Part shown: positions 5,347 through 25,295 of the stretch, one piece after another
How the letters are laid out: every line of letters begins with the position of its first letter
Numbering within the stretch: position 1 is the first letter of the stretch
Virus record (IMG/VR): IMGVR_UViG_3300034095_001209
Location: 1-28,474 of that record
Direction: 5' to 3' (one strand)
From: a virus
DNA length: 28,474 nt
Made by a program: the position numbers and the translations under genes
Notes under the pieces: generated by a model
Seen by the model: the letters and a program-made list of their open reading frames with translations, nothing else
Told to the model about the DNA's origin: nothing
Database searches by the model: none

Positions 5347-6648
5347 ATGAAATTCAATGATTTGTTAAAGAGTGTCATCTTAGAGAACAGCCGTTATGAT
5401 ATCTTGAAAAAGACGTTGACTATGCCTCGTAAGAAGGATGACAAGGTTATACCTGCCAAGATGACTCTTCAGGAGTTTGACAAGATTGTTTTAGCTGACC
5501 CTACAACACGTAGAGCTGGTGATGAAATTAAGAAGGCGGGTACATATGTTAACTGGTTGGTGAAACAATTCCTTTCTTTGGTTCCTGAGGACGAACAAGA
5601 AGGTACTCCACGATACAAATCAGAACTCAAAAGAAAGAAAGATTTGTTTTTTGAGGATTTATATAAAACGACTCAAGACTTACAGAAATTTGATAAGTTC
5701 AAACAAAAAATTCCGGAGGATATTCGTGATATTAACAAGTTGAGTATTGACGGACTTTTCAATGTAGTTAAAGACTTTGACCTTACCTTGGCAACAACAA
5801 GTAAGGCGGAAAGAAAATCAATGCCTTCACATCCAGGTGGTGATATGGTTTTTGATGGTGATAGATGGAGAGTTGTTAAAATTGTAGATAAAGGTTCTTT
5901 AGGTAAAGAAGCTGCATGTTTCTACGGTGGTAACAACGAAGAAACACGTTGGTGTACATCAGCACCTGGATTGAATTACTTTAACAGTTACATTTCTCGT
6001 GGTCCATTGTATGTAATCATGGATAAGAATGATGCAAAACTTGGTAACAAAACAGGACTACCAATGCACAGATATCAGTGGCACTTCCAAGACCAACAGT
6101 TCATGGATATCCAAGATAGACAAATGGATTGGATTGGTTTCTTGAATGGTGAAGGTGCTGAAATGAAACAGTTTTTCAAACCTGAAATCATGAAGAACTT
6201 GTCAGGACCTACAGGAAATTCTGTAGTTGTTGAATACCCACGTGATGCCACATCTAAGTACATAGCTCTTTACGGTTTTGATGAATTTTTCGAATCACTT
6301 CCAAAGACGTTACAAAGATTTGATTTTACAAGTAGTGGTAATAATCGTTATGGTGAGAAGAGTAGTGAAGTTAACTTGGAATTACCTGAAAAGATTGGAG
6401 ACTACGACAATTTAGAAGTACTTCACTTAGATGGTGTGGTTAATAAGTTACCTAACACTATTGGTAAATTGAAAAAACTCCAATTCTTGTCTCTTCCAAA
6501 CAATAAAAACTTACAAGAATTACCGGAATCAATTGCTGACCTACCATCTCTTATGGTATTGAACTTAAAGAATTCGAATCCTAATATTAAAATCCCGAAG
6601 AGAGTTCAGGATAAAATTGATAGCAACGATATTCACGTCGTTAAGTAA
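5347..6648 (+). CDS. Leucine-rich-repeat protein with WCT-motif domain and N-terminal leader, 433 aa
   Basis: Three parts can be read. The N-terminus, MKFNDLLKSVILENSR, resembles the short (I/L)-x-E leaders that direct T4-type proteins into the prohead. A central domain has an invariant-looking TRWCTSAPG (W202-C203-T204), followed by an aromatic-rich region (PLYVIMDKND, RYQWHFQDQQFMDIQD). The same domain occurs in the gene at 13333. The C-terminal part, about residues 350-425, has leucine-rich repeats (LEVLHLDG, LPNTIGKLKKLQFLSLPNN, LPESIADLPSLMVLNL), a protein-binding scaffold. The function is unknown. The combination suggests a protein that acts on a host or virion partner. A terminator follows immediately. 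Confidence 0.75.
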   Translation: MKFNDLLKSVILENSRYDILKKTLTMPRKKDDKVIPAKMTLQEFDKIVLADPTTRRAGDEIKKAGTYVNWLVKQFLSLVPEDEQEGTPRYKSELKRKKDLFFEDLYKTTQDLQKFDKFKQKIPEDIRDINKLSIDGLFNVVKDFDLTLATTSKAERKSMPSHPGGDMVFDGDRWRVVKIVDKGSLGKEAACFYGGNNEETRWCTSAPGLNYFNSYISRGPLYVIMDKNDAKLGNKTGLPMHRYQWHFQDQQFMDIQDRQMDWIGFLNGEGAEMKQFFKPEIMKNLSGPTGNSVVVEYPRDATSKYIALYGFDEFFESLPKTLQRFDFTSSGNNRYGEKSSEVNLELPEKIGDYDNLEVLHLDGVVNKLPNTIGKLKKLQFLSLPNNKNLQELPESIADLPSLMVLNLKNSNPNIKIPKRVQDKIDSNDIHVVK

Positions 6649-6654
6649 TAACTA

Positions 6655-6684
6655 AACAGGACCTTGAGTCCTGTTTTTTTTTTT
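6655..6684 (+). terminator. Intrinsic terminator after the leucine-rich WCT gene
   Basis: AACAGGAC and GTCCTGTT form an 8-bp stem with a CTTGA loop and are followed by eleven T residues. The T run runs directly into the promoter of the next gene. Confidence 0.9.
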
Positions 6685-6686
6685 AG

Positions 6687-6694
6687 TATATTTG
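6687..6694 (+). promoter_or_regulatory. Host-type TATATTTG box, near-leaderless
   Basis: TATATTTG ends 4 nt before the ATG at 6699. The expected upstream TTTG position falls in the terminator hairpin (CTTG at 6663-6666, a 20-nt spacing). The terminator and promoter thus overlap, and the transcript would begin at or next to the start codon. Confidence 0.6.
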
Positions 6695-6698
6695 TACT

Positions 6699-6974
6699 AT
6701 GAATGTTGATATTGAGATTTATATGAGTGAGTTTGTTAGGTTTTTTAAAGAAAACCCTAACGACCTGACTAACCTTATTGGTAAGGCAAAACAAGAAGAT
6801 TTTTTTAATGGTGTTAAACAACTTGCCGAAAAAAATTGGGAAGAAGGGAACGACGTACAACTTACTCAAAAACAAATGATTGCTCTTATTGTTGAACTAA
6901 ATGATAAGACCGAAGATATGATTGTTAAGATACCTATGATGGTAACAAAACACGGTAATATATTTCTTAATTGA
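6699..6974 (+). CDS. Unknown small phage protein, 91 aa
   Basis: The gene follows its own TATATTTG box by 4 nt. The protein is acidic and helical and contains FFKENPNDLTNL near residue 15. A very similar phrase (VKENPNDMEL) occurs in the short protein at 15697, so the two may share a small helical module. No catalytic residues or membrane segments are visible. A later M (at IYMSEF, residue 9) is an alternative start if the transcript begins slightly downstream. Confidence 0.65.
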   Translation: MNVDIEIYMSEFVRFFKENPNDLTNLIGKAKQEDFFNGVKQLAEKNWEEGNDVQLTQKQMIALIVELNDKTEDMIVKIPMMVTKHGNIFLN

Positions 6975-7032
6975 TTTTTAATATACATTTCAAATAACCA
7001 TTATTATAGTGGAATCATTATTTGATTTTTAC

Positions 7033-7040
7033 TATATTTG
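7033..7040 (+). promoter_or_regulatory. Host-type TATATTTG box for the PcfJ-like gene
   Basis: TATATTTG ends 5 nt before the first ATG (7046) and 11 nt before a second in-frame ATG (7052). I see no TTTG at the expected -33 distance, so only the -7 element supports this call. Confidence 0.5.
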
Positions 7041-7045
7041 TTGTA

Positions 7046-8713
7046 ATGGAAATGACAAATCTATATAAATGGACTTACGATAAGTTTGTAGTACATAAAG
7101 CTTCAGATACTAACACCATCGAACAGAATGATAGTTCTAAAAGAGTTAAATGGGATATAGAGTCCGTATCTGAAGTTGATACGGAAGTATTAAAAAAAGT
7201 TTACGGTGATTTGTTATACAAGGTAACGGTAAATAATGTTACTTTTGTTTGCGACTCCAACGATGATAAAGTATCTTTGAAAATATACAGTACTATAAGG
7301 CGAAGAGGTTTTGGTATTAGATACTTCAAAGTAAGACGAGAGATTGTATTTGTTACTTATAATTTTAAAACTAACAATTTATATTGTGGTAATATTTTAA
7401 AAAGTAATAAGCGTACGATTCAAAAAAAAATTTACTGTAATAAGTTCGGTGAGGTTGGATTACAGAGACATATGTTAATGTTTCACAACATAATTAAAGA
7501 TTGTTTTCAAAATACAAATCCAAATCCTTTTTTTATTCAAACAGCTCTTATTGGAAAAGTTGGTGATGACCCCAAAGAAAAAAGTATTTTGTTAGACGCA
7601 ATCAAGGTTTTTTTTAATAAAATAATGGATAAGGCTCAAGTTGAATTAAAGTATGATTCAACATTACAGTATCAATTTTTTAAATTATATTTAAAAACCA
7701 ATGATGTCAAATATCACGACATGATTAATGATTATGTTGAATGGAGTTTACCCAAGAAACTTTTAAAAAAACATAAGAACTATGTTGATGCTTTTATGGA
7801 TTATTATAAATTCAAGGGAAAGAAAATCAAAAAATATATGAACCAAATTCCAAAAATAGATTGGTTCAATCTTAGTTGGTCATACAGAACATTAGGTATC
7901 GATTACTTCAACAAAATAGATAAAAAGTTTTTTAAATACAATAATAACTCTTCATATTATTTGACTAATAATTTATTTAATAATCCTGATAAGTTGACGA
8001 ACTTTGAAAAATCCAAAGTTGTTAATGCTATTAATTCTGAAGTCCCATTATCTACAATTATTGACCATTTACAGACAATAAAAAAATTAAAAGAAAAATA
8101 CAATCATGAATTTAAAATGAGGTTTACCGACCTCAGTTCTTTTAATTCGGAACATTATGAGATTTCCGAATTATACACTTCGTATAAAAAAGGTATTGTT
8201 GTAAGGTCCTATGGTGATTTTGCTGAAGAACAAATATCAGAATCAATCATGGGATTCAACATTGATTATTTTCCGGTTGTATTAAAAACTACCGGTGAGT
8301 TTAATGAAGAATCACAAAATCAACAAAATTGTGTTAGAACATATTCTGAAAAACCTAACTGTATAATTATATCTCTAAGGGCTGGTTCACATAACTCAAA
8401 CGAAAGGGCGACTATAGAATATAGATTCAGAAGGAAGGAAATGATAAGAGCACAATCACGTGGTAAGTTCAACAGGGGTTTGGAAACTTCATGGGATTTA
8501 CCTTTGGAGATTTTGGACAAAAGAGTTAAATCGCTTTGGCGTAATATGACATTAACACTTCCACGTATGAAGAAGGAAACTATGAATGGTAAATTAATTA
8601 AACAATATATTTCTATGTTTGATGAAAAAAATCCAATTATCGTTGAACCTATATGGGATGAACAGATAGATTATGATGGTGATGAAAATTTATTTTTAGA
8701 TTTTGTTGGTTAA
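7046..8713 (+). CDS. PcfJ-like protein, 555 aa
   Basis: The C-terminal third carries the pattern of PcfJ-like proteins: ESQNQQNCVRTY (C429), IIISLRAG, RATIEYRF, then IRAQSRGKFN, which matches the NCV-Y / R-T-E / Q-G-N order. PcfJ-like proteins were first noted on the conjugative plasmid pCF10 and are frequent on phages and plasmids, but their biochemical role is unsettled. The first 350 residues are lysine- and asparagine-rich with little recognisable structure. The start is either ATG 7046 or ATG 7052. The Cys-centred motif resembles the WCT motif of the two proteins at 5347 and 13333, which hints at a related fold (inference). Confidence 0.7.
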   Translation: MEMTNLYKWTYDKFVVHKASDTNTIEQNDSSKRVKWDIESVSEVDTEVLKKVYGDLLYKVTVNNVTFVCDSNDDKVSLKIYSTIRRRGFGIRYFKVRREIVFVTYNFKTNNLYCGNILKSNKRTIQKKIYCNKFGEVGLQRHMLMFHNIIKDCFQNTNPNPFFIQTALIGKVGDDPKEKSILLDAIKVFFNKIMDKAQVELKYDSTLQYQFFKLYLKTNDVKYHDMINDYVEWSLPKKLLKKHKNYVDAFMDYYKFKGKKIKKYMNQIPKIDWFNLSWSYRTLGIDYFNKIDKKFFKYNNNSSYYLTNNLFNNPDKLTNFEKSKVVNAINSEVPLSTIIDHLQTIKKLKEKYNHEFKMRFTDLSSFNSEHYEISELYTSYKKGIVVRSYGDFAEEQISESIMGFNIDYFPVVLKTTGEFNEESQNQQNCVRTYSEKPNCIIISLRAGSHNSNERATIEYRFRRKEMIRAQSRGKFNRGLETSWDLPLEILDKRVKSLWRNMTLTLPRMKKETMNGKLIKQYISMFDEKNPIIVEPIWDEQIDYDGDENLFLDFVG

Positions 8714-8728
8714 ATAAAAACTTTGATA

Positions 8729-8736
8729 TATATTTG
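8729..8736 (+). promoter_or_regulatory. Host-type TATATTTG box for the small basic protein gene
   Basis: TATATTTG is preceded by TTTG at 8702-8705 with a longer than usual 23-nt gap. The start codon is 22 nt downstream, and a terminator closes this one-gene unit. Confidence 0.55.
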
Positions 8737-8758
8737 TAGTCTAAAATAAAAACTCAAA

Positions 8759-8902
8759 ATGGCAAAAGTAAAATCAAACACCTCAGCATCGTTCAAAGAA
8801 CGTTCACAAGTTTCACGTCCTGGAGTTCATGCGAAAACCAAGACATCACGGTCAAAGAATTCTAAAAACTATAAGAAAGCTTATCGTGGTCAGGGTCATT
8901 AA
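8759..8902 (+). CDS. Small basic protein, 47 aa, conserved Bacteroidetes type
   Basis: The product is rich in Lys, Arg, Ser and Thr, with no acidic stretch and with the phrases GVHAKTKTSRSK and YKKAYRGQGH. By recollection, very similar 45-50 residue proteins occur in Bacteroidetes chromosomes and phages without known function. The composition suggests nucleic acid or ribosome binding. It stands in its own transcription unit between a TATATTTG box and a strong terminator, which argues for substantial separate expression. Confidence 0.75.
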   Translation: MAKVKSNTSASFKERSQVSRPGVHAKTKTSRSKNSKNYKKAYRGQGH

Positions 8903-8924
8903 TATTAAAAAAAGTTAAAGTTTT

Positions 8925-8957
8925 GGGCACACTCTTAACGGGTGTGCTCTTTTTTTA
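8925..8957 (+). terminator. Intrinsic terminator after the small basic protein gene
   Basis: GGGCACAC and GTGTGCTC form an 8-bp stem (one G-T pair) with a 9-nt loop and are followed by seven T residues. Confidence 0.9.
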
Positions 8958-8983
8958 TTTGTAAATTAAATTATTTTTAAACA

Positions 8984-10102
8984 ATGAAAGTTAAATTAGA
9001 ATATGTTTGGTTGGATGGTTATACACCTGAACCAAATCTACGTAGCAAAGTCAAAGTATGTGATTTAGAATTAGTTTCAGTTGAAGTACTACCAGAATGG
9101 TCATTCGATGGGTCATCAACTAAACAAGCCGAAGGACATTTCTCTGACTGTATATTAAAACCTGTAAGAGTTTATGAAAATCCTTTGAATAATGGATATA
9201 TAGAATCTTATTTGGTTTTGTGTGAAGTCATGAATCCTGACGGAACACCACACTCAAGTAATACAAGAGCACTTGTTGGTGATGATAAACCTGACCTATG
9301 GTTTGGATACGAACAAGAGTACACTATCATGCAAACTGGAAGACCTTTGGGATTTCCTCACAACGGTTACCCTGAACCTCAAGGTAAATACTATTGTGGT
9401 GTTGGTAATGGACAAGTCAATGGACGTGAGTTTGTTGATAAACATATGGAGAACTGTATCGAGGCGGGTATAGAGATTACAGGTACAAATGCTGAAGTTC
9501 TTTTAGGTCAGTGGGAATACCAAGTATTCTCAAAAGGTAAATTAAAGGCTGGTGACGACCTGTGGATTTCAAGATACATTCTTCAACAAATGTCTGAAGA
9601 GTATGTTTATGATATTGAGTTACACCCAAAACCTGTAATGGGTGATTGGAATGGCTCAGGTCTACACTGTAACTTCTCAAATGACAAGATGAGAAACGAG
9701 GGTGGTGAAGAATACTTTAAAAATATTTTTAGAGCTTTTGATAGTCGTCATGATTTACACATTCAAAATTATGGTTCAGATAACAACTTACGTTTGACGG
9801 GTAAACATGAAACACAATCTATTGACAAGTTTAGTTGGGGAATATCTGATAGAGGTTCATCTATTCGTGTACCTTTATCAACAGCTAAAGAATGGAAAGG
9901 TTATATTGAAGACCGTCGTCCAGCATCTAACGGTGACCCATATAAGATTTGTAAAGTTATTAGTGAAACTTTAGATTATGCTGAACATCTTAACCACATC
10001 AAACATAATATGGAAGACAAGGATATCACAATACCTGTACTTATTGATAATATGGATTCTTTTGAAGAAAAATTAAGAGAAGAATATTCCAAAAGAGATT
10101 AA
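8984..10102 (+). CDS. glnA: Type II (eukaryote-like) glutamine synthetase, 372 aa
   Basis: The protein makes glutamine from glutamate, ammonia and ATP. It matches type II glutamine synthetases in length and motifs: LEYVWLDG, PEWSFDGSSTKQAEG, LVLCEV, WFGYEQEYT, NAEVLLGQWEYQV, GDWNGSGLHCNFS, NNLRLTGKHET, DRGSSIRVP and YIEDRRPASNGDPY. These cover the metal, ATP and glutamate sites, so it looks catalytically intact. Type II enzymes are found in eukaryotes and some bacteria, including Bacteroidetes. Carriage by a phage is unusual and suggests an auxiliary metabolic gene that supports nucleotide or protein synthesis. The stop overlaps the next ATG (TAATG), and the operon continues into thioredoxin and glutaredoxin. 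Confidence 0.95.
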   Translation: MKVKLEYVWLDGYTPEPNLRSKVKVCDLELVSVEVLPEWSFDGSSTKQAEGHFSDCILKPVRVYENPLNNGYIESYLVLCEVMNPDGTPHSSNTRALVGDDKPDLWFGYEQEYTIMQTGRPLGFPHNGYPEPQGKYYCGVGNGQVNGREFVDKHMENCIEAGIEITGTNAEVLLGQWEYQVFSKGKLKAGDDLWISRYILQQMSEEYVYDIELHPKPVMGDWNGSGLHCNFSNDKMRNEGGEEYFKNIFRAFDSRHDLHIQNYGSDNNLRLTGKHETQSIDKFSWGISDRGSSIRVPLSTAKEWKGYIEDRRPASNGDPYKICKVISETLDYAEHLNHIKHNMEDKDITIPVLIDNMDSFEEKLREEYSKRD

Positions 10103-10482
10103 TGGATAATAACAAAGTACCTGAATATATTATTGACCGAGTTAATAAAGAACTCGGTCAATATCCTTGTATCCTACAAACAAACTTCTTTAAGGAAGAG
10201 GCAATTGCGGTATTAGAAAAGAACTCAGAAGAGTCTTGGTTCAATCACTATACTGATGATGTTAAATTCTATAAACTTGAAGGATTGATTAAGTATTCAG
10301 ACACTAACATCTATATTTATTACAAGAGAAAAAGCTCCGATGAGAATGTTTTTCGGTTCGTATTTCTAATCAATTCAAATCAAAAAGACACATGTCTTTT
10401 TATGATACATAAATTAAAACAATATAAAGTACAAGATTTTTATGCAAATTCTAACATCACAACAACTGAGAGAAAAAATTAA
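10102..10482 (+). CDS. Unknown protein, 126 aa, between glutamine synthetase and thioredoxin
   Basis: The ATG overlaps the glutamine synthetase stop by one base, and the end overlaps the thioredoxin gene by 41 nt, so it is firmly part of this operon. The middle has a strand-rich pattern (NIYIYYKRK, VFRFVFLINSN) after a helical N-terminus. No motif or family is recognised. The operon position alone would suggest a nucleotide, redox or nitrogen-related role, but nothing in the sequence confirms that. Confidence 0.65.
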   Translation: MDNNKVPEYIIDRVNKELGQYPCILQTNFFKEEAIAVLEKNSEESWFNHYTDDVKFYKLEGLIKYSDTNIYIYYKRKSSDENVFRFVFLINSNQKDTCLFMIHKLKQYKVQDFYANSNITTTERKN

Positions 10483-13312: not shown

Positions 13313-13320
13313 TATTTATC
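13313..13320 (+). promoter_or_regulatory. TATTTATC box before the second WCT-motif gene
   Basis: AATATTTATC lies 12 nt before the ATG at 13333. It is a one-base variant of the TATTTATA box found at comparable distances before other leader-carrying genes. Confidence 0.4.
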
Positions 13321-13332: not shown

Positions 13333-14934
13333 ATGAGTTTGGGTAAAGTATTGTTAGAGGGTAGAAGGGAAGACTTCATTCAGAAGTACAGAGGTAAGTT
13401 CAATTTGGAACAATTGAAGAGTATTATCGCATCTGCCACTCAACTTTCACAGAATCTAAAGTTTATTGATTTCTTGGGTAGAAACATATCTCCTTTGAAC
13501 TTTGAACAAAACTTACAGGATGCTGTAAAATTAGTCCCTGAGTTTGTTCGTTATCAAGAAAACTTACCGGTGAAAGATATTAATCAATATGAGAGTATTG
13601 AGCAGTTAAGTGACGTTTTATCTACCCATACCAACAGACAAAGAAGAGACGTTGAATACAACGAAGGTGCCGTTAAAATTTATGAGGACGACAACTTTGT
13701 TGTTGTAAGTCCAACAACTCATGAGGGTTCTTGTTATTATGGTGCTGGTACCAAGTGGTGTACTGCAACAAGAGACTCCACAAAACACTTTGATAGTTAT
13801 AACTATAGAGGTAAGTTGTTCTATGTTATATCTAAAAAGATACCATCAGATAACAAATACTATAAGATTGCCATTTACAAATTATTTGATGACAGGGAGC
13901 AATACTATGATGCTGTTGATGATAATATTTCGGCTTATGATGTCCTAAAAGTATTTGGAGATACTTGGAAAAAAGTAATTGGGTCAATAAATAAATTTAT
14001 GTCTGAGAACTATTCAGATAAACAAAAGATATGGTCTGACCAAGCTACTGCAAATGCGGAAGAACAAAGAATTCGAAAAGAGGCTGAAGAGGCTAAACGT
14101 AGAAGAATTTTGGCAAGACAAGAGGAACTCCGTGAGAGTGATGCTTGGGCTGAGGGTAATTGTGATGATATCATTGCAACATCAGCAAGAGCAGTTTACC
14201 AATTAATTCAATCAGAAGGTGATGTTGAGGAAGGGGAGGACATTTACTATTTGGTTCGAGAAGAGTATAACCACTATAGTTTACCAGTATTCAAGTGGAT
14301 GGGTGAGACTCATAATAATGAATATGCTGTAGGGGATGATTCTGATGCTGATGAAGCTGCGTATGTAAACATAGATGAATTTGTTAGTGAAAACGGTATA
14401 AGAGCATTTAGAGAAGGTTTTGCCGATAATTACATTGATGTAAATGCTGTTACTTCTGTGGCTGAGGAATTGTATAATGATTGGGTTTCTGAATCGCCAG
14501 AAGATTATATAGATGAAGGTAGAAGACAACCAACTGAGAAACAACAACAATTCTTGGAGTTTTATAAAAAGAAACTTGAAGTTCTAAGAAAGAAATTAGA
14601 ACAAACAACAGACCCAGAAACAAAAGAAGATTTAGAAAATAATATAACGGAGGTTGAAGGTGAAATTGAAGAAATACAAGAAAACCCTGAGGGTGACTTT
14701 ACAGATGAAGATATTGAAAATGCGGTGGAAGCCTTAGTTAGTAATGTAGAATACGACCCGTTAGGATTTTTAAATGATTTTGATATGGAAGTTGAAAATT
14801 ATATAGACAGGGAGGCTTTGGTTAAAGGAGTTATTGAATCAGATGGCAGAGGTGTTGGATTAGCCGGATACGATGGTGAGGAACACGAACAAGAGGTGTG
14901 TGGTGAAACGTATTTTATATACCGAATAGATTAA
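13333..14934 (+). CDS. WCT-motif protein with coiled coils and acidic C-terminus, 533 aa
   Basis: The start, MSLGKVLLEGRRED, carries an L-L-E tripeptide within the first ten residues and resembles T4-type prohead-targeting leaders. Residues about 110-215 form the same domain as in the gene at 5347: SCYYGAGTKWCTATRD (W142-C143-T144), then GKLFYVISKK and YKIAIYKLFDDREQYYDAVDD. A charged coiled coil follows (EEQRIRKEAEEAKRRR). The long acidic region contains YVNIDEFVSENG and NDWVSESPEDYID, and a second coiled coil lies near residues 405-450. The ATG at 13333 is preferred because it follows the promoter-like box. A virion cargo or structural role is plausible; no activity is shown. Confidence 0.75.
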   Translation: MSLGKVLLEGRREDFIQKYRGKFNLEQLKSIIASATQLSQNLKFIDFLGRNISPLNFEQNLQDAVKLVPEFVRYQENLPVKDINQYESIEQLSDVLSTHTNRQRRDVEYNEGAVKIYEDDNFVVVSPTTHEGSCYYGAGTKWCTATRDSTKHFDSYNYRGKLFYVISKKIPSDNKYYKIAIYKLFDDREQYYDAVDDNISAYDVLKVFGDTWKKVIGSINKFMSENYSDKQKIWSDQATANAEEQRIRKEAEEAKRRRILARQEELRESDAWAEGNCDDIIATSARAVYQLIQSEGDVEEGEDIYYLVREEYNHYSLPVFKWMGETHNNEYAVGDDSDADEAAYVNIDEFVSENGIRAFREGFADNYIDVNAVTSVAEELYNDWVSESPEDYIDEGRRQPTEKQQQFLEFYKKKLEVLRKKLEQTTDPETKEDLENNITEVEGEIEEIQENPEGDFTDEDIENAVEALVSNVEYDPLGFLNDFDMEVENYIDREALVKGVIESDGRGVGLAGYDGEEHEQEVCGETYFIYRID

Positions 14935-16350: not shown

Positions 16351-16555
16351 AGATAAAAAAACAACAAAAGAATCCACATTATCATCATCACTTAAACCGA
16401 AAAAGGTTGTAGGATGGTATTGCTTAGGAAGTAAAGACAGGATGAATTGTACTGCATTTACTACTTACAACAAACCTAACCCCATTAAAAGATTCTTTAT
16501 GAGAACCTTACTAGATTTTTATTGGGTTAAAGACACAAACAATGACAAAAAATAA
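16343..16555 (+). CDS. Small protein with duplicated 45-residue core, copy 1 (70 aa)
   Basis: After a short unique N-terminus the protein contains KPKKVVGWYCLGSKDRMNCT, FTTYNKPNPIKRFFMRTLLD and FYWVK. Those 45 residues recur identically in the gene at 17800. The core is aromatic and basic with two cysteines and could be a small membrane-surface or nucleic acid-binding module; this is a guess. Its end overlaps the next ATG. The near-identical DNA shows a recent duplication or gene conversion. Confidence 0.65.
   Translation: MNKDKKTTKESTLSSSLKPKKVVGWYCLGSKDRMNCTAFTTYNKPNPIKRFFMRTLLDFYWVKDTNNDKK
16394..16530 (+). repeat. 137-bp direct repeat, copy 1
   Basis: The segment starting AAACCGAAAAAGG and ending TTGGGTTAA is repeated at 17863-17999, 1469 bp downstream, with only one mismatch (16516 T against 17985 C). 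The coding frame is the same in both copies. Confidence 0.95.
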
Positions 16556-17803: not shown

Positions 17804-18006
17804 AACAAACTAGCAAAGATTGGTTACAAGAGATATTAGAAGCTAAAATCGCAAGCTTTCCAAAACCGAAAAAGGTTGTAGGATGGTATTGCTTAGGAAG
17901 TAAAGACAGGATGAATTGTACTGCATTTACTACTTACAACAAACCTAACCCCATTAAAAGATTCTTTATGAGAACCTTACTAGACTTTTATTGGGTTAAG
18001 GAATAA
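17800..18006 (+). CDS. Small protein with duplicated 45-residue core, copy 2 (68 aa)
   Basis: A unique N-terminus (MKQTSKDWLQEILEAKIASF) is followed by the same 45-residue core as in the gene at 16343 (KPKKVVGWYCLGSKD, ending FYWVK), identical at the protein level. The different N-termini and the sharp repeat boundaries point to recombination in the coding region rather than whole-gene duplication. Confidence 0.65.
   Translation: MKQTSKDWLQEILEAKIASFPKPKKVVGWYCLGSKDRMNCTAFTTYNKPNPIKRFFMRTLLDFYWVKE
17863..17999 (+). repeat. 137-bp direct repeat, copy 2
   Basis: This is the second copy of the repeat at 16394-16530, with 136 of 137 positions identical. Recombination between the copies would remove 1469 bp, including the genes that start at 16542, 16778, 17287 and 17570. 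Confidence 0.95.
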
Positions 18007-18833: not shown

Positions 18834-19711
18834 AGAATATAGAAGAATTAAAAGGAAAGATTTGGAACTCAAACACTGTTGAGTTTATGGACAACATGGA
18901 GGAGGGTTCAATCGACTTGATGGTTACCAGTCCACCATACGGTGTTGGGATTGATTATGACAGTTGGGACGACGATAAAGAATTTAATGAATATATGAAG
19001 TTCACGGAGGAGTGGTTGACTGCAGCGTACCGTGTGTTGAAAGACGATGGTCGTATTGCCATCAACATCCCTTACGAGATTAACCGCCAATCAAAAGGTG
19101 GGAGAATTTATTTTTCAGCTGAGGTATGGGCTGTTATGAGAAAGATAGGTTTTGGTTTCTTTGGTATCATTGACTTGGAAGAGACATCACCACATAGAAG
19201 CAAGACAACTGCGTGGGGAAGTTGGATGAGTCCTTCATCACCATACATTTACAATCCAAAAGAGTGTGTAATCTTGGCGTATAAAAAAGTTCACACTAAG
19301 AAAGTCAAAGGAACACCTCAATGGGAATCTTGGGTTGAAATGATTGATGACCCAAAGAACCCTGACCAACAAAAGAAGAAACAGATGTATGCTGATGATG
19401 ATAAGAAAGACTTCATCAATTTGGTGTACGGACAATGGCATTACTTTGCTGACACCAAACAACAAACCAAAGCAACATTCTCAATGGACATCCCTTGGAA
19501 GGCAATCAAGATTCTATCATACAAAGAGGATGTTATTATGGACCCGTTCAATGGTTCAGGAACAACATGTTTAGCTGCTGAGATGTTGGGAAGGTCTTGG
19601 ATAGGAGTGGACATCAGTCCGAACTACTGTGAAGTGGCACGAAAGAGAGTTAGGGAATACCAATTACAACAAAATCAACTTAAAATACAATTAGAAACCC
19701 CTACTAAATAG
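18830..19711 (+). CDS. TSPPY-type DNA methyltransferase (N4-cytosine or N6-adenine), 293 aa
   Basis: The catalytic motif TSPPYG lies at residues 33-38 and the SAM motif MDPFNGSGTTCLAAEMLGRSWIG lies near the C-terminus (only its core is given by DPFNGSGTT). The order catalytic motif first, then SAM motif, is that of the beta group, which includes N4-cytosine and some N6-adenine enzymes; TSPPY favours N4-cytosine but does not prove it. It should modify phage DNA as protection against restriction, or act as an orphan regulator. It is the last gene of the operon, and its stop codon is part of the terminator hairpin. Confidence 0.9.
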   Translation: MKNIEELKGKIWNSNTVEFMDNMEEGSIDLMVTSPPYGVGIDYDSWDDDKEFNEYMKFTEEWLTAAYRVLKDDGRIAINIPYEINRQSKGGRIYFSAEVWAVMRKIGFGFFGIIDLEETSPHRSKTTAWGSWMSPSSPYIYNPKECVILAYKKVHTKKVKGTPQWESWVEMIDDPKNPDQQKKKQMYADDDKKDFINLVYGQWHYFADTKQQTKATFSMDIPWKAIKILSYKEDVIMDPFNGSGTTCLAAEMLGRSWIGVDISPNYCEVARKRVREYQLQQNQLKIQLETPTK

Positions 19712-19730: not shown

Positions 19731-19738
19731 TATTTATT
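19731..19738 (+). promoter_or_regulatory. TATTTATT box before the SGNH-like gene
   Basis: GATATTTATTAAAC lies directly after the methyltransferase terminator, with 4 nt between the box and the ATG at 19743. A new transcription start is expected here because the preceding operon has just been terminated. Confidence 0.5.
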
Positions 19739-19742
19739 AAAC

Positions 19743-20312
19743 ATGGGAAAACCTTTCATACTTAATGAACAAGATAGACAACGTATAAAACTCTTATATG
19801 AGGATAGTGTGGAGTCTCAGACAAAAGTCCCTGTAATACCGAGAAATATTATTATTGGTGACTCTCAAACACCTTATGTTGATAACGCAACATCTAAAGC
19901 ATCAAGAATTGGAACTACAGGTGGGGTTGAATCACTTTGGAAAGGTGGTATGGGTGTTAACTGGTTAAAGGATGCTGTAAATGCTTATCCATATGTCAAT
20001 GAGAATGTTGAAAACGTCATCACAGTAATTGGAACTAACGGTAACTTCGGTAGGGTTTTTAATGATGATGTTGCGGGATTGTTCGCAGCAATCGGTGAGA
20101 AGTTTCCAAACACAAGAATATTGGTAGTTCAAGGTTCGTGGGGTTGGGGTGGTCTTGCAAGGACTACAGAAAAACAGGTAAGGGATTATTATAAACAATA
20201 CAAGGAACTAGGAGGTATTTTGATTGAACCACCGATTGGTAACATAGAGCCACATGGAAACAATCCTGTGTACCAAAAAATTGGTTCAGCGATTGATTCT
20301 ATGATTAGATAA
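19743..20312 (+). CDS. SGNH/GDSL-type hydrolase-like protein with leader, 189 aa
   Basis: After the leader MGKPFILNEQDRQRIKLLYE (L-N-E and L-Y-E tripeptides) the protein shows IIIGDSQTP with GDS at residues 39-41, as in block I of SGNH hydrolases. VIGTNGN at about 95-101 matches the block III G-x-N, and NIEPHGNNPVYQKIG with H171 matches the catalytic His block (normally D-x-x-H, here E-P-H). These enzymes are serine esterases and deacylases acting on polysaccharide, lipid or peptidoglycan acetyl groups. A role on the host envelope fits the peptidoglycan-binding-like neighbour. Block II glycine is not clear, so activity is inferred. Confidence 0.7.
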   Translation: MGKPFILNEQDRQRIKLLYEDSVESQTKVPVIPRNIIIGDSQTPYVDNATSKASRIGTTGGVESLWKGGMGVNWLKDAVNAYPYVNENVENVITVIGTNGNFGRVFNDDVAGLFAAIGEKFPNTRILVVQGSWGWGGLARTTEKQVRDYYKQYKELGGILIEPPIGNIEPHGNNPVYQKIGSAIDSMIR

Positions 20313-20319
20313 AATAAGA

Positions 20320-20327
20320 TATTTATA
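20320..20327 (+). promoter_or_regulatory. TATTTATA box before the peptidoglycan-binding-like gene
   Basis: GATATTTATAATAAAA lies 13 nt before the ATG at 20341. The copy at 24975 has the same flanks (GATATTTATAATAAAA) and the same 13-nt distance. Confidence 0.55.
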
Positions 20328-20340
20328 ATAAAATTTGATT

Positions 20341-20745
20341 ATGAAACAATTCAGAATTAACGAACAAGAAAAAAGTAGAATACTTGGTTTACACATCGAA
20401 GCCACGTCAAGACAATACCTAAAAGAAGATTTAAACAATGGTATGACTACTATTGAGAGATATAACTACAATAGGGGTATTCAGTGTTTCTTGAATAAGA
20501 AAAATGTAAAGGATGATGAAGGTAAATCACTAAAAATGGATGGGTCCATTGGTAATTTACCTAACTCTAAAAGTGCTCAAGCAGTTGCAAAATATCAGTC
20601 AATGATTAGGGTAACCCCCGATGGTGTTTGGGGTGAAGATACAATGGATGCGATGCCAGAAAAAGACAAAGTCATTTTCAAACAGTGTATGTCTGACTAC
20701 GGAGATTTATTTGATAAAATTGCACATTACTTCGGTTGGGACTGA
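20341..20745 (+). CDS. Peptidoglycan-binding-like protein with leader, 134 aa
   Basis: The leader MKQFRINEQEKSRILGLH is nearly the same type as in the gene at 19743 (NEQ-R-RI--L). The rest includes RGIQCFLNKKN, then SAQAVAKYQSMIRVTPDGVW and GEDTMDAM. This matches the helix-turn pattern of PG_binding_1 domains (V--FQ---GL--DG--G--T). It would bind cell-wall glycan and target a lytic or structural protein there. The ATG at 20341 is chosen over an alternative start two codons earlier. Its TGA overlaps the DHH-SET gene start, so the two are co-translated. Confidence 0.65.
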   Translation: MKQFRINEQEKSRILGLHIEATSRQYLKEDLNNGMTTIERYNYNRGIQCFLNKKNVKDDEGKSLKMDGSIGNLPNSKSAQAVAKYQSMIRVTPDGVWGEDTMDAMPEKDKVIFKQCMSDYGDLFDKIAHYFGWD

Positions 20746-22814
20746 TGAAGAAGTTAATTAAAGAATCGGGTCTACGTGACATTAACGCTTTGGCGAAAAG
20801 ATACCCAAAGGCAAAGATTTACTTCCACCAAGATTTGGATGGAGTAACAACTGCAATTGCCATGAGAGAATATTTGGAATCCAACGGTATTAAAGTTGTT
20901 GGTTCTGAGGTTATCCAATATGGTGATAAAGAGTTTGCTGTAAAGAAACAAGATGCGACTGGTGATACAATGCCTGTGTTGGTTGACTTCGCTCACGGTA
21001 AACCGATGTTTGTTATCCATACAGACCACCACGATACACAGACAGGTGTTGAAAAAGATACTTCAGTTTCATTCAAACCATCACGTTCAAATGTAGCTAC
21101 AATATCTCAGGTTGTTTCACCAAAAGAAATCTTCACACAAGATGATATCACTTTGATATCAACTGTGGATTCTGCAGACTTTGCAAAATACGGGTTGAAA
21201 CCAAAAGACATCATGAACTTTATCTTCAAGTTAGATAAAGACAAATCATTACAAAGTAATAAATTCGCTTTAGGGCTAGCAGCTAACAAATTATTATTAG
21301 CTTATAAGAACAAACCAGGTTTCTTAGAAGAGTTGGTTATGAATGCATCACCATCTTTGTTGAATATCTTACAGAACACTAAGAGAATTGCTCAAGAGAA
21401 AAACTATGCAACTCCTGAGATGATGAGTTCAAACCAAAAGAATTACATTCAGTCTCAACAGAACAGTTCACGAGTTCAGTTTGAAGACGGTATCATCGTT
21501 CAGTACGGTGGTGGGGCATTATCTAAGCCAGGTGCTTATGATAGATACGTTCCGTTTGAAAACTATCCCGATGCTGACTTTTTGGTTATTGCATGGCCAA
21601 TGGGATTGGTACAAGCGTCTTGTAATCCATTCAATAAAGAAAGACAACTCAAGGGTGTTAACTTGGGTGAGATTGCCGATGAGGTAATGTTGAAATGGAA
21701 AGGTCAGTTGGAAGATAAGATTATTCCTTTATCTACTATTAAGTGGGTATCTGAAACATCGGCTAAAGAAGGTTCTGTTGGATTTACAGATGCTGACCTT
21801 GAAGCATTCTACGGTGATAAGGTACGTGAGATTGAGAACGGTGAACAATACCTTTCATCAATCAAGAAGATAATGGCTAAACCATCAAAAGATTTAAAAG
21901 ATGAAGAGTGGTCTGTGTTGGATAGGTTTGGTGTTCCTGCTTGGGATATGATTGAAGCGAACTCAGGTGGACACAAATGTATTACAAACATTTCAGCACT
22001 TAACTACTTCGGAAGGGCTAAGAGACCAAATCAGGACCCTTATAGATATAACCCTGAAGCGGACGACGCACCATACGTTAAGTTTGTTAAGATGATTCAA
22101 AGAGAGTTTGTGAATAAACTCAAAGAAAAAATCAATGACCAATCTGGTAACATAACAGAAAATGTTGATGTTAAAAAATATTATGTTGATAGGAGTAATA
22201 TACAAGGTAGAGGTTCCTTTGCTAAAAATGATTTAGAAGAAAACGAAGTCATTGGTCTTTTACACACTATAAACAAACCTGGTGTTAGTTATGATTTTAC
22301 AGATTTAGGTAAAATGCACAACCATAGTGATAATCCAAACTGTCACAATGTTTTAAAAAAAAAACAAAGATTTTTAGTGGCCTCTCGACCAATAAAAAAA
22401 GGTGAGGAGCTGACGACCAACTATAGATTACAACCAGACTTAGAGCAACCTGAACATTTCAGAGTAAATAAGTCAAACAAAGAAAGAGAAATGTTACCAC
22501 ACATTGATGGTTACAGGTCTTATAGTCCATTCCAAGATTTAGAATATATTATCGTGAATGGTAATGGTATTGACTGTGATGATATAGTTCATGACTTAAT
22601 TTTGGTTGGTGACAATGGGGTTATTAAATATGGACCTAAAAATAGTGGGGCTCATTATTTGGATGATGCTAAAAAAGTTGTTGAATTACCACTTAGAGAT
22701 AATGAAGACCCAACTGAACTTTTTAGTAGTGAATCAAATATGATGAATTGGTTGAACAAGAAGTTAGATAAAGTTGACGTTAACTTCGAAATCAGAAGAA
22801 ACTTCTTCAATTAA
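20745..22814 (+). CDS. DHH phosphoesterase fused to a SET domain, 689 aa
   Basis: Residues 1-15 (MKKLIKESGLRDINA) form a leader with I-K-E. The DHH domain shows FHQDLDGVTTAIAM (D-x-D at about 28-30), VDFAHG and HTDHHD with His-Asp-His-His near 92-96, plus STVDSADF. These are the metal-binding motifs of RecJ/NrnA/oligoribonuclease-type enzymes, which cleave phosphodiester bonds. From about residue 472 a SET domain follows: GRGSFAKNDLEENEVIGLLH, MHNHSDNPNCHN, then ASRPIKKGEELTTNYR. This is the order of SET lysine methyltransferases, including the NHS and Y motifs. A C-terminal segment of about 120 residues is unassigned. The gene is coupled to the peptidoglycan-binding-like gene. Confidence 0.85.
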   Translation: MKKLIKESGLRDINALAKRYPKAKIYFHQDLDGVTTAIAMREYLESNGIKVVGSEVIQYGDKEFAVKKQDATGDTMPVLVDFAHGKPMFVIHTDHHDTQTGVEKDTSVSFKPSRSNVATISQVVSPKEIFTQDDITLISTVDSADFAKYGLKPKDIMNFIFKLDKDKSLQSNKFALGLAANKLLLAYKNKPGFLEELVMNASPSLLNILQNTKRIAQEKNYATPEMMSSNQKNYIQSQQNSSRVQFEDGIIVQYGGGALSKPGAYDRYVPFENYPDADFLVIAWPMGLVQASCNPFNKERQLKGVNLGEIADEVMLKWKGQLEDKIIPLSTIKWVSETSAKEGSVGFTDADLEAFYGDKVREIENGEQYLSSIKKIMAKPSKDLKDEEWSVLDRFGVPAWDMIEANSGGHKCITNISALNYFGRAKRPNQDPYRYNPEADDAPYVKFVKMIQREFVNKLKEKINDQSGNITENVDVKKYYVDRSNIQGRGSFAKNDLEENEVIGLLHTINKPGVSYDFTDLGKMHNHSDNPNCHNVLKKKQRFLVASRPIKKGEELTTNYRLQPDLEQPEHFRVNKSNKEREMLPHIDGYRSYSPFQDLEYIIVNGNGIDCDDIVHDLILVGDNGVIKYGPKNSGAHYLDDAKKVVELPLRDNEDPTELFSSESNMMNWLNKKLDKVDVNFEIRRNFFN

Positions 22815-22934
22815 TTATTTTTAACTTTTTTGTCCCTGAGGGGTTGACAGAAACAAAAAAACATTTATAGTTATAGAACTTTTAAAGATTAACCGATATT
22901 TATTTATCACAATCAAAAAAAGTTTACAAAATTA

Positions 22935-22966
22935 TTTGACAATCTGAAAACGATGTCGTAAGTTTG
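22935..22966 (+). promoter_or_regulatory. Host-type promoter of the large non-coding RNA
   Basis: TTTG at 22935-22938 and TAAGTTTG at 22959-22966 are separated by 20 nt, a full Bacteroidetes primary-sigma promoter. Two TATTTAT boxes (22897-22904 and 22901-22908) lie upstream, so the second promoter class may also act here. The region 22815-22934 contains no gene. Confidence 0.75.
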
Positions 22967-22972
22967 TAAAAC

Positions 22973-23921
22973 AAATCAGAAACACGGAATCCAAATCTCA
23001 CTATCCGTAGTTATAGAGTAAGTTTCTGATACGTTCTTTGAAAATTAATGGTTGAGATATCAACTTGTTTTTTGGTGACTTGTCACCGTGACCCCTTTTC
23101 TTTTCAAGAAAAGTTGATATCAAAAACCTTCGGCGGTTTAGCGTCGTTAGATAACCTCAGTAATGAGACTAAAAGGATGGAACTTAGATTAGCCTCTAAG
23201 GGAAGTTCGCAGGACGAGAGTCTTGACAACTAAACAAAGTGACTACGGTTATTGCCCCAACGACAAGTGTTGAGGGGGAATAATCACTCCGAGTCCGTGG
23301 AATATCGGGGTTGAGGTGGTGACACCAATAGGAAAAGTCACAGGTGACGGTTCGACACTCCCTGCCATGGGTTGTAGAGCTGGGTACCAGTCTCAAGGGT
23401 TTCCGAGTCGTACAAAAAGAGATGACGAAGTCCTGACAGACCGTGAGCTGGCAGGTTCACAGGGTGGTGTGAAGCATTTTGTTCCCAAAAGGAACGGAAC
23501 TTCTCCCGAAGCACATCGTCCATTTATCCACAAGAGCTAACTTTATATGAAAATAAAGACAAAGCACAAGTTCTTCGGGCGTTGAAACTGAAAGGTGTCT
23601 AACACTTCAGGTCATCGGACTAATGGAGTCATAGGCGGACCGCAAGTCCTCTTATGTTAATCACGAAATACCTCGTGGGACGGCCATCCCTTAGTGAGCT
23701 CGCAAGGCTTAAGAGAGTAGAGTAACGGTTGAGTTGGTTTTAACGAAAAGAGTGGTGAACTTAAATTACCGACACTGACTCGATACTACGGGCAATCGTA
23801 GTGGACAATGTGAGGAACCAATATCTGGATAATCTCACGAAAGACGGGTCTTCAAAACGTGTAGTCTCAACGTATTTACACCTTCCTTAACCTCAGTCCA
23901 AAAATACTGAGGTTTTTTTTT
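22973..23921 (+). ncRNA. Giant structured non-coding RNA of about 950 nt
   Basis: Between a consensus promoter and a strong terminator there is no convincing reading frame; the base composition is richer in G and C than the flanks, and hairpins are everywhere. Stems seen by eye: 22975-22983 with 23022-23030 (9 bp) enclosing 22984-22988 with 23004-23008; GATATCAACTT near 23054 with AAGTTGATATC near 23113, enclosing a GGTGA/TCACC hairpin; CTCA-GTAA-TGAG and AGGAC-GAGA-GTCTT with GNRA loops; CTTAGA/TCTAAG; GTTCC/GGAAC; CTTTAT/ATAAAG; ACTACG/CGTAGT. Size, ornate folding and phage location resemble the GOLLD and ROOL classes, but I cannot confirm membership. No group I, group II, RNase P or tmRNA signature was recognised. 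Confidence 0.8.
23891..23921 (+). terminator. Terminator of the large non-coding RNA
   Basis: CCTCAGT and ACTGAGG form a 7-bp stem (9 bp with flanking AA/TT), with an 8-nt loop, followed by nine T residues. Confidence 0.95.
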
Positions 23922-23929
23922 GCTCTTAT

Positions 23930-23960
23930 TTTGGTGGTACGGAAAATATTTGTATATTTG
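23930..23960 (+). promoter_or_regulatory. Host-type promoter, near-leaderless
   Basis: TTTG at 23930-23933, a 19-nt spacer and TATATTTG at 23953-23960 match the Bacteroidetes consensus. The ATG at 23968 is only 7 nt downstream. Confidence 0.8.
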
Positions 23961-23967
23961 TACCACA

Positions 23968-24225
23968 ATGAAGACAGTTAAAATTATCCATCCAAAGTTC
24001 GGCGAGATTCTAAACGAGGAATACCAAGATGCAGTTCAGCACAAGATTTTCTTGACTATGATTCATTCATGTTTGGAATTGAAGCAAGATTTGACAACTT
24101 TCAACGGACGTGATTTCTTGATGCACGTTCCATTTGAAATTCTTCGTCAGAGTCTAATTCTTGGTAACGTTGAAACAGTTACACTTGGTGAATATGCTAC
24201 AATTAAATCCAAGATGGAAGGTTGA
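23968..24225 (+). CDS. Unknown small phage protein, 85 aa
   Basis: The gene follows a consensus host-type promoter by 7 nt. The product begins MKTVKIIHPKFGEILNEEYQ and continues as a helical protein (FLTMIHSCLELKQDL, FEILRQSLILGN). There are no recognised motifs, signal peptide or membrane span. The ATG at 23968 is used because longer frames would run into the promoter and terminator of the large RNA. Confidence 0.7.
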   Translation: MKTVKIIHPKFGEILNEEYQDAVQHKIFLTMIHSCLELKQDLTTFNGRDFLMHVPFEILRQSLILGNVETVTLGEYATIKSKMEG

Positions 24226-24252
24226 TTAAGTCGTATTTAATTTTTATACTTT

Positions 24253-24438
24253 ATGTCTATGGGAAGAGAGTTCAAATGTGGTGATTGGGTTGTTATTCCC
24301 AAGACTAAAGAAATTAAGTATGTTGAAGAAGTCGAAGTTTACGATGGGGATGCTGTTGTTTACACTAGTGATGGTTGTTCTTACGGTGTGGTACAGTGCC
24401 AAACGGTGCATCAGGCTTATGAGGCTGAAAACCGTTGA
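24253..24438 (+). CDS. Small SH3-like protein, 61 aa
   Basis: The product reads GREFKCGDWVVIPKTKEIKY, then VEEVEVYDGDAVVYTSDGCS, and YGVVQCQTVHQAYEAENR. The D-W-V-V-I, V-V-Y and short turns suggest a small beta-barrel of the SH3 or KOW type; this is inference from strand pattern only. It probably belongs to the transcript that starts at the promoter near 23960 and ends at the terminator near 24494. Confidence 0.6.
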   Translation: MSMGREFKCGDWVVIPKTKEIKYVEEVEVYDGDAVVYTSDGCSYGVVQCQTVHQAYEAENR

Positions 24439-24493
24439 GTTCCTGAACTCAAATCAGGTGGTGGAGTGATTGACCTTCTGGTCAGTCCCAATT

Positions 24494-24520
24494 AAAGGTC
24501 AACTTCGGTTGACCTTTTTT
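24494..24520 (+). terminator. Intrinsic terminator with TTCG tetraloop
   Basis: GGTCAAC and GTTGACC form a 7-bp stem, extended by AAA/TTT, closed by a TTCG loop, and followed by six T residues. Confidence 0.95.
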
Positions 24521-24530
24521 GTTATTAAAC

Positions 24531-24538
24531 TATTTATT
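24531..24538 (+). promoter_or_regulatory. TATTTATT box before the HEIAH gene
   Basis: CTATTTATTTAAC lies 4 nt before the ATG at 24543 and directly follows a terminator. Spacing and variant base are the same as in the copy at 19731. Confidence 0.45.
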
Positions 24539-24542
24539 TAAC

Positions 24543-24965
24543 ATGGAAGAAGGAGTAATGGTATATCCAAGTGAGTTTATGGAAAACATATTCATCAACG
24601 TGGTTTATGAGAACAATGTTCACTACCCTGAACTTAAGAAAATCTTTGACCAATATGGTTATGGTTTTTTATTCCCTGAGATGAAAACTATTATTGTTGA
24701 TGGTGAAATGTTTGGTGATGGTAAGTTATCTGATGATGATTTAAAGTTTATTGAAGCTCATGAGATTGCCCATGTAAAGTTTGGACACAACGGACCAAGA
24801 ACTCAAAAAGAAGAGTTGGAAGCTGATTTGGGAGCTTATGTTATGTTAAAGACAAAAGGATATGAGAAATCCGTCTCAAGGTTATTGGAAGAGTTTGAAT
24901 ACAGACATGGAATTGAATTCGATGAAAAGTTGTTGGATATGATACGTTCAACTTTCGCCTTCTGA
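24543..24965 (+). CDS. Zincin-like protein with HEIAH motif, 140 aa
   Basis: FIEAHEIAHVKFGH carries HExxH at residues 73-77, and EELEADLGAYVML (about 90-102) supplies the downstream acidic E-x-x-A-D-x-x-A motif seen in ImmA/IrrE-type and M48-like zinc peptidases. All key residues are present, so it is likely an active metallopeptidase. ImmA-type enzymes cleave repressors, and other relatives act on cell-wall or structural proteins; the target here is unknown. The ATG at 24543 is the first after the TATTTATT box. It is a second HExxH protein in the window, unrelated in sequence to the one at 3099. Confidence 0.8.
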   Translation: MEEGVMVYPSEFMENIFINVVYENNVHYPELKKIFDQYGYGFLFPEMKTIIVDGEMFGDGKLSDDDLKFIEAHEIAHVKFGHNGPRTQKEELEADLGAYVMLKTKGYEKSVSRLLEEFEYRHGIEFDEKLLDMIRSTFAF

Positions 24966-24974
24966 GATTAATGA

Positions 24975-24982
24975 TATTTATA
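24975..24982 (+). promoter_or_regulatory. TATTTATA box before the 99-aa leader-carrying gene
   Basis: GATATTTATAATAAAAG lies 13 nt before the ATG at 24996, with the same flanks and distance as the copy at 20320. Confidence 0.55.
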
Positions 24983-24995
24983 ATAAAAGGGTGTA

Positions 24996-25295
24996 ATGAA
25001 ACAAATTATTATTAATGAGGACCAACTTGACAGATTGAAGAAGATGCTCAAGGAAAACAACGAACAAGGTTCATACATGGCTAAACAACAACTCTTCACC
25101 ATCGCCACTTTGGCCTATAAGATGTGGGAGATGATGGAGGACGGAGAACAACTCGAAGACTGGCAAGAAAGTAAAATTGCTCAGGCTGAAATGGGTATTG
25201 TTTCAGTTGTTAAGTCTTACATGTACGACGAGGTTAAGGATAAGGTAACAGGAACTGACCAACTTGATTTTAGCGAATTAGTTATCGGTCAGTAA
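24996..25295 (+). CDS. Leader-carrying helical phage protein, 99 aa
   Basis: The N-terminus MKQIIINEDQLDRLKKMLKE has the same architecture as the leaders at 20341 and 19743 (hydrophobic, INE, then a charged helix). The remaining part, MWEMMEDGEQLEDWQESKIA and following, recalls small proteins of T4-like marine phages (EDGE-LE-W--SKI--A), which are of unknown role. It may be an internal virion protein. A terminator follows, so it is a single-gene unit. Confidence 0.7.
   Translation: MKQIIINEDQLDRLKKMLKENNEQGSYMAKQQLFTIATLAYKMWEMMEDGEQLEDWQESKIAQAEMGIVSVVKSYMYDEVKDKVTGTDQLDFSELVIGQ

Follow-up and report, generated by a model that had tools for sequence, protein, structure and literature searches.

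Leader genes in the window

The window considered here, i.e. the whole 28,474-nt stretch of the IMG/VR virus record IMGVR_UViG_3300034095_001209, is a fragment of a virus genome, and several of its genes start with a short N-terminal leader that contains an (I/L)-x-E tripeptide. An initial annotation had listed six such starts on otherwise unrelated proteins and had read them as leaders bringing cargo into the capsid, in the manner of the capsid-targeting sequence (CTS) of phage T4. The six open reading frames (ORFs), named here by their first position, begin exactly as had been quoted, and (I/L)-x-E is present within the first 14 residues of all six; a seventh leader gene at 3099 (YVILE↓ASKRQKL, with the arrow denoting the predicted junction of leader and body) had been overlooked. 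The leaders of 19743, 20341, 20745 and 24996 belong to one class, termed class A below, whereas 5347 and 13333 stand outside it and are domain relatives of one another, both matching WCT-domain proteins of the related contigs G010 and G011, each with its own (I/L)-x-E leader. The leaders, their bodies and the late-type promoter boxes in front of them are as follows:

3088..3095, + strand: TATTTATA box (late-type promoter) before 3099
3099..3152, + strand: leader of 18 residues, ending in YVILE↓, of a 314-residue protein; its G001 orthologue (57665) reads MKTINE↓GSKRVKL, with the same junction
5322..5329, + strand: TATTTATA box before 5347
5347..5385, + strand: leader MKFNDLLKSVILE of the WCT/leucine-rich-repeat (LRR) protein; I11 and E13 invariant in 18 aligned sequences
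5386..6648, + strand: WCT/LRR body, a cargo candidate (433 residues in total); LRR_14 at 2e-9, below cut-off, and LRR folds in PDB
13313..13320, + strand: TATTTATC, one-base variant of the box, before 13333
13333..13359, + strand: leader MSLGKVLLE of the second WCT protein (533 residues); LxE↓G[RK][RK]ED junction in relatives
19731..19738, + strand: TATTTATT, one-base variant of the box, before 19743
19743..19769, + strand: leader MGKPFILNE, class A (13.6 bits), of a 189-residue protein
20320..20327, + strand: TATTTATA box before 20341
20341..20364, + strand: leader MKQFRINE, class A (13.5 bits), of a 134-residue protein
20745..20765, + strand: leader MKKLIKE (14.5 bits) of the DHH-SET protein (689 residues); orthologues with other leaders and the same junction
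20766..22814, + strand: DHH-SET body; SET at 5.3e-10, above cut-off, DHH at 1.1e-4, below cut-off
24975..24982, + strand: TATTTATA box before 24996
24996..25055, + strand: leader MKQIIINEDQLDRLKKMLKE, class A (16.1 bits), with two (I/L)-x-E sites, of a 99-residue protein

The bodies behind these leaders differ widely, and for the majority of cargo bodies Pfam gave no usable match. The 3099 protein, likewise without a match in the Pfam search, carries a YHELQH motif that we take to be metallopeptidase-like. The predicted model of the 5347 protein has a mean pLDDT (predicted local distance difference test) of 69.7, with residues 1–26 below 50; among the matches listed in a PDB fold search only LRR folds appear, the WCT domain being without match, and tblastn in the phage collection returned one LRR match. 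The 13333 junction recurs at G010 56569, G010 66476 and G011 62333, and a megaphage relative (L209) starts MIKNYSEFILE↓N. The SGNH-like character of the 19743 body is a suggestion of the initial annotation alone. G026 150452, a homologue of that body, starts with a Sec-type signal peptide in place of the leader; the leaders themselves, read by eye with no predictor, do not show the hydrophobic core and signal-peptidase site of Sec signal peptides. The 20341 body matches peptidoglycan-binding proteins weakly (PG_binding_1 at 4.1e-4, below cut-off; phrog_2649 endolysin at 3.1e-5). In the 24996 family, both (I/L)-x-E sites are retained in G035 208494 and G036 12290, with near-identical bodies from GSYMAKQQ on. 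DHH and SET parts are fused in the window (20745–22814), whereas the orthologues of G001 (470 residues) and G035 (471 residues) stop before the SET part.

Relatives and leader statistics

Three queries gave the relatives: 24 loci came from the 20341 protein, 29 from the 5347 protein and 80 from a gene of contig G001 that we take to be CsgG-like. Two of them are near-complete, G035 with 270,383 b and G036 with 291,867 b, and their DHH proteins are 72% and 60% identical to that of the window, respectively. DHH homologues also occur in three more distant complete records of 635–735 kb, the megaphages LR745206.1 (W01), LR756502.1 (W02) and LR756501.1. The immuto phage, initially considered a close relative, was dropped as such, since only some of its genes are common with the window and its leaders are different. 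Genes were called as greedy ATG ORFs, with no trained gene finder; ORFs of fewer than 60 residues, near-identical ORFs repeated among contigs of the same clade and the part of G002 below 60.7 kb were left out of the leader statistics.

By itself, (I/L)-x-E is weak evidence because it is only mildly above chance: it occurs in the first 14 residues of 10 of the 43 window ORFs compared with 11 of 144 windows starting at internal methionines (Fisher p = 0.010). Four of these ten ORFs (10442, 17800, 18830 and 23338) have no other evidence of a leader. We thus rejected this count alone as proof. More informative are two leader profiles trained on the window and on G001, G002, G010, G011 and G029, for which independence is confined to leave-one-contig-out tests and to G035 and G036, the profiles having first been trained on the sets that they describe. 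Class A is a nine-residue consensus, [YIKF][IV][IL][TNKS]E[SEN][QED].., exemplified by MKIIITESQ. When the window was excluded from training, 6 of its 43 ORFs still matched, where 0.15 were expected; the list from the full set adds 10442 (a thioredoxin and probably a false match) and 17287 to the window members already named. Across the window clade 64 of 637 ORFs matched (3.7 expected from internal windows), and 52 did so in the leave-one-contig-out test (4.35 expected), compared with 25 of 2666 internal methionine starts. The initial annotation had proposed looking for further copies, and these are abundant also in the unseen relatives, with 19 of 283 ORFs in G035 (1.6 expected) and 40 of 334 in G036 (2.0 expected). 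Class B (ENIxRIKEMMGLxxE) was found in 27 of 637 ORFs, summed over six contigs (4.8 expected), in 8 of 283 in G035 (1.6 expected) and in 13 of 334 in G036 (2.3 expected). Elsewhere class A lies only slightly above background, in T4 (5/245, 1.5 expected), the immuto phage (3/214, 0.8 expected) and the megaphages (14/893 and 16/922, 5.8 expected for each). Although some profile matches are clearly false, being signal peptides or the thioredoxin, a short N-terminal leader is common to bodies of many families: the 158 leader ORFs fall into 120 body families, with 22 ORFs in 22 families in G035 and 53 in 48 in G036. At least two (I/L)-x-E sites within the first 26 residues were present in 56 of 75 leader ORFs of G035 and G036 and in 37 of 542 others, a count that is partly circular because one site is already in the profile.

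The promoter box follows the leaders less strictly than had been claimed. The statement that most of the six genes carry TATTTATA was overstated, since the exact box precedes three of them (5347, 20341 and 24996) and a one-base variant two more (13333 and 19743), while 20745, which overlaps the preceding gene, has none. In the window, TATTTATA occurs eight times (3.8 expected; 2 of 100 shuffles reach eight), always on the coding strand and 3–58 nt before an ORF. The box, in the form TATTTATW, was picked among four motifs on the training contigs, where it lies within 80 nt of 22 of 83 leader genes versus 70 of 554 others (p = 0.002), and was then tested on the unseen G035 and G036, with 27 of 75 versus 72 of 542 (p = 5e-6). 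Several head genes have the box as well, among them the scaffold genes of G011, G029 and G035, but it does not precede the major capsid protein (MCP) gene in either G035 or G036. The T4 box TATAAATA was not enriched before leader genes of the training contigs (3/83 versus 26/554).

Leader–body junctions

Across orthologues the leader is exchanged while (I/L)-x-E remains at the junction. For the DHH protein the junctions read MKKLIKE↓SGLRD in the window, MKKIIKE↓SGLRD in G001, MKKILNE↓TGLRN in G035 and MKMVITESQYKRLLNE↓SGIRN in G036, followed in the megaphages by MISKYNQFINE↓EVGLRN (W01) and MLRKYGQFINE↓EVGFKN (W02); the motif is thus found in six of six (LIKE↓S, IIKE↓S, ILNE↓T, LLNE↓S, FINE↓E and FINE↓E). 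In the WCT alignment, i.e. 18 sequences including 17 of the 29 loci found with the 5347 protein after exclusion of near-identical copies and of two loci without a full ORF, F3, I11, E13 and R16 are the sole invariant columns among the first 16 residues of the window protein, and I-x-E is present in 18 of 18, its middle residue (position 12) varying freely among L, I, V, N and S. A full ORF was present at 27 of the 29 loci, and all 27 have I-x-E. Five proteins presumed to be of the HAD type have the junctions ISE↓G, LNE↓G, IKE↓G, FLE↓N and IRE↓S, i.e. four of five with (L/I)-x-E and one with F-L-E. The leader of polyphosphate kinase 2 (PPK2) is of class B in G010 and G029 and of the FINE↓E kind in W01 and W02.

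PPK2 genes with such clade-specific leaders lie at G029 149111 (+), G010 29501 (+), W02 140679 (+) and W01 143761 (−). A virion-borne PPK2, as a source of nucleotide phosphorylation, would be unusual.

Head genes of relatives

Cleavable prohead leaders would go with a T4-type head, and the initial annotation would have been contradicted by a genome without a T4-type prohead protease; in the nearest near-complete genomes, such an absence was not found. Profiles of the S77 protease (PF03420) and of gp23 (PF07068), with T4 as a positive control, both gave matches above the Pfam cut-off in G010, G011, G035 and G036, the protease reaching E values of 1e-23 and 5.5e-26 in the two near-complete relatives. 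Protease and MCP occur together on G010, G011, G029, G035, G036 and others. The searches took 25 of the 80 loci found with the CsgG-like gene and 11 of the 29 found with the 5347 protein; among these records, all of which may be fragments, the protease was found in 10 of 25 and 3 of 11, and gp23 above cut-off in 8 of 25 and 3 of 11. Within the fragments G000–G009 the protease was not found, and the window and nine contigs were negative for the protease and gp23. The protease motifs [GS]E[LF][ND]HP (with the histidine) and SSR (with the serine) are retained in seven of seven aligned sequences, and all five window-clade MCPs have LINE↓A opposite the T4 cut site LTE↓A. The gene order—terminase, portal, protease, scaffold-like protein and MCP, the first two assigned by likeness and position with no search—is that of T4. 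The megaphages gave a weak protease match (E 1e-4 to 7e-6) that stays below cut-off but lies about 2 kb before gp23.

Megaphage leaders and scaffold repeats

The megaphages have leaders of their own, resembling MKHLKxYKIFES or MKYLKxFNES, in 153 of 893 ORFs of W01 and 172 of 922 of W02 (1.1 and 1.2 expected), although some of these profile matches are signal peptides; above 15 bits there are 112 ORFs in 104 families in W01 and 143 in 118 in W02. The pattern Y-x-x-F-[ILV]-x-E occurs at 24 of 893 N-termini in W01 (2.7 expected) and 27 of 922 in W02 (2.5 expected). In T4 it is found in 2 of 245 ORFs, both starting MKTYQEFIAE and presumably encoding IPII and IPIII. The pattern was written after leaders and scaffolds had been viewed, only its T4 spacing coming from published mapping.

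In the megaphages a single fused protein combines the protease with a scaffold-like half, which holds about a dozen YSEYIAEN repeats, and this fusion is present in 78 of 80 head loci. The YxxFIxE pattern occurs internally 11 times in the scaffold of W01 and of W02 (next ORF, 2), and of the 620 internal matches counted over the 80 loci, 526 fall within 48 scaffold ORFs. The scaffold also ranks first when internal matches to the position-specific scoring matrix (PSSM) are counted (10 of 172 and 9 of 170; next ORFs 3 and 4). The idea that it is the best single PSSM match was rejected, as it is not first by maximum score and its repeats are not independent. From the YxxFIxE spacing and its recurrence in the scaffold, we propose that the megaphage address is one scaffold repeat, which would dock on the core and be cut by the enzyme that dismantles this core.

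Several further leader proteins deserve separate mention. RNA ligase and poly(A)-polymerase-type enzymes with YxxFIxE-like leaders lie at W01 470485 (+), W02 491690 (+), W01 516201 (+) and W02 597869 (−), and the alignment of T4 RNA ligase 1 with the megaphage ligase begins only after the megaphage leader; this suggests that RNA repair may be delivered. Furthermore, tiny leader proteins appear to imitate the N-arm of the MCP in their bodies: W01 93266 (+) and 554784 (−), W02 80294 (+) and T4 gp61.1 (18966–19130, −). The W01 case reads MRYLKPYKKFIEN..SGMGAVSSAQPGGLAGT, to be compared with SGMGAVVAAQPASLAGT of its own MCP, and gp61.1 reads MKTFKEFIKED..SIGTTSGAVVNKGP, to be compared with NIAAGQTSGAVTQIGP of gp23. 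A possible third leader class, MK[KR]Sxxxxx[IV]xE, opens both a small protein of the head cluster and distant cargo-like proteins in immuto-type phages (NC_055915 123355 (+) and 113188 (+); G033 15410 and 7038; G026 60081 and 76753).

Other features of the window

A 140-nt segment is duplicated with 99% identity (16394–16533 and 17863–18002), which gives the otherwise different small ORFs 16343 and 17800 one common C-terminal half. In addition, an ORF that we take to be GIY-YIG-like and a presumed thymidylate synthase gene (25559–26845 and 26902–27756) end alike with YKSHxSIKxPLSN; the GIY-YIG-like ORF directly follows the thymidylate synthase gene, an arrangement suggestive of a homing gene that took up a copy of the thyA end.

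Discussion

We propose, with a probability of roughly 0.8, that the leaders of the window, 7–20 residues long, are prohead-targeting propeptides of a jumbo phage with a T4-type head, cleaved by a gp21 homologue. The window phage would be such a phage, as its relatives of 270–292 kb suggest. Tagged proteins would be made late in infection together with the head proteins; the leader would bind the prohead core, so that the tagged protein becomes enclosed, and a gp21-type protease would cleave after (I/L)-x-E and release the mature protein, which would stay beside the DNA inside the capsid and probably pass into the next host. Of this scheme, we infer the core binding, the cleavage, the packaging and injection of tagged proteins and the roles of their bodies. 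The initial view of the leaders has thus held in part: the six starts were right, the tripeptide was a weak test and the box claim went too far, while its packaging interpretation is supported by the additional copies and by the S77 protease and gp23 of relatives, with the proviso that the leaders are not T4 CTS by sequence.

In T4, a short N-terminal propeptide with (L/I)-x-E is likewise found on unrelated proteins, i.e. IPI–III and Alt, and is cut by gp21 (PMC9026906, PMC5694885). Targeting depends on residues 4 and 7 of the CTS and cutting on residues 8 and 10, gp21 cleaving after L/I-X-E (PMC9026906). The likeness extends to the S77 protease and gp23 head of the window relatives and, in a subset of megaphage leaders, to Y-x-x-F-I-x-E, which retains the residues tied by mutation to targeting and cutting. 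T4 differs in having a handful of leader proteins, in contrast to 22 candidates in G035, 53 in G036 and more than 100 ORFs in megaphages, and the window-clade leaders read ITESQ, RIKEMMG or LLK..IxE, often with two (I/L)-x-E sites. The best reading, apart from sequence, is that the leaders may work like the T4 CTS, in a system of that kind whose protease and head are of matching types. In phiKZ and SPN3US, also large phages with many head-internal proteins, inner-body and ejection proteins are cut by a gp21 homologue, some after a glutamate motif; their protease, however, is of the S80 type, with SxE/AxE motifs and mostly propeptides of more than 100 residues, and a gp22 counterpart was not confirmed there (PMC5694885). 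Our leaders do not follow that pattern, with a protease matching S77 above cut-off (no S80 search was made) and predicted leader lengths of 7–26 residues. The injected anti-restriction internal proteins of T4-like phages similarly have bodies with nothing in common except the packaging leader (PMC12373910). A literature search over titles and abstract starts, with most subscription papers outside it, found no description of such leaders in these phages, and within this literature the number and diversity of leaders and the scaffold repeats are new.

Several observations weigh against our proposal. Head genes were not detected in the window itself, a 28 kb fragment. (I/L)-x-E is frequent by chance (8–18% of control stretches), and TATTTATA precedes window genes without a leader (14976, 26902 and, on the minus strand, 11902 and 11067) as well as the many leaderless genes of relatives counted above. 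The T4 targeting residues (Y4 and F7) are not kept in the window clade (1/283 in G035, 2/334 in G036), and no repeat array of the megaphage kind was seen in the window-clade scaffold sequences examined. Finally, the PPK2 homologue of G035 lies within an 861-residue ORF without a leader.

An unlikely alternative is that the leaders are propeptides of structural head or core proteins, which would be cut in the head yet serve its architecture or DNA condensation instead of acting as effectors delivered to the host. Small leader proteins do adjoin head genes (G035 110015, G036 149774), and an immuto-type head-cluster protein starts MKKSQIVKAVQEVLEEM, much like the cargo start MKKSQLRQIIKEALD, whereas bodies that include enzymes and enzyme-like domains—PPK2, RNA ligase, the poly(A) polymerase head domain, SET/DHH, SLT and LysM—speak against a purely structural role. 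We regard as improbable that the leaders are some other N-terminal module without a role in packaging, e.g. for targeting to an intracellular phage structure or for late-gene translation starts: AT-rich phages favour K/I-rich starts and box and leader occur together, yet the class A profile is specific to its clade, with near-background counts in T4, immuto and megaphages, I and E are conserved around a free middle residue in the WCT alignment, and the megaphage motif has T4 CTS spacing and is repeated in the scaffold. Chance or paralogy, i.e. common ancestry or the mere frequency of the tripeptide just noted, may account for individual members and would fit the domain relationship of 5347 and 13333, but is hardly credible for the class as a whole given 158 leader ORFs in 120 families and a class A count of 59, against 3.6 expected, in the two genomes kept out of training.

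Beyond the proposed packaging of leader proteins in the window clade, a broader view, for and against which we see about equal odds, is that Bacteroidetes phages of ~270 to >630 kb have a capsid address that is modular, differs from clade to clade and equals one binding repeat of their own scaffold. Any tagged gene product could then be loaded, including polyphosphate kinase, RNA ligase and a poly(A)-polymerase-type nucleotidyltransferase, and dozens to more than 100 kinds of protein per virion would enter the host before phage genes are read.

The dozens of tags in close relatives suggest a virus that injects a kit of ready-made proteins. If so, a scan of N-termini would sort hundreds of unknown genes of uncultured jumbo phages and megaphages into one class, that of virion-carried proteins, which would explain the use of part of a 600 kb phage genome, point to candidates for immediate-early effectors and counter-defences and hint at how scaffold and address diverge as a pair. 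An address that is a scaffold repeat would, if true, also supply a mechanism for the CTS of T4.

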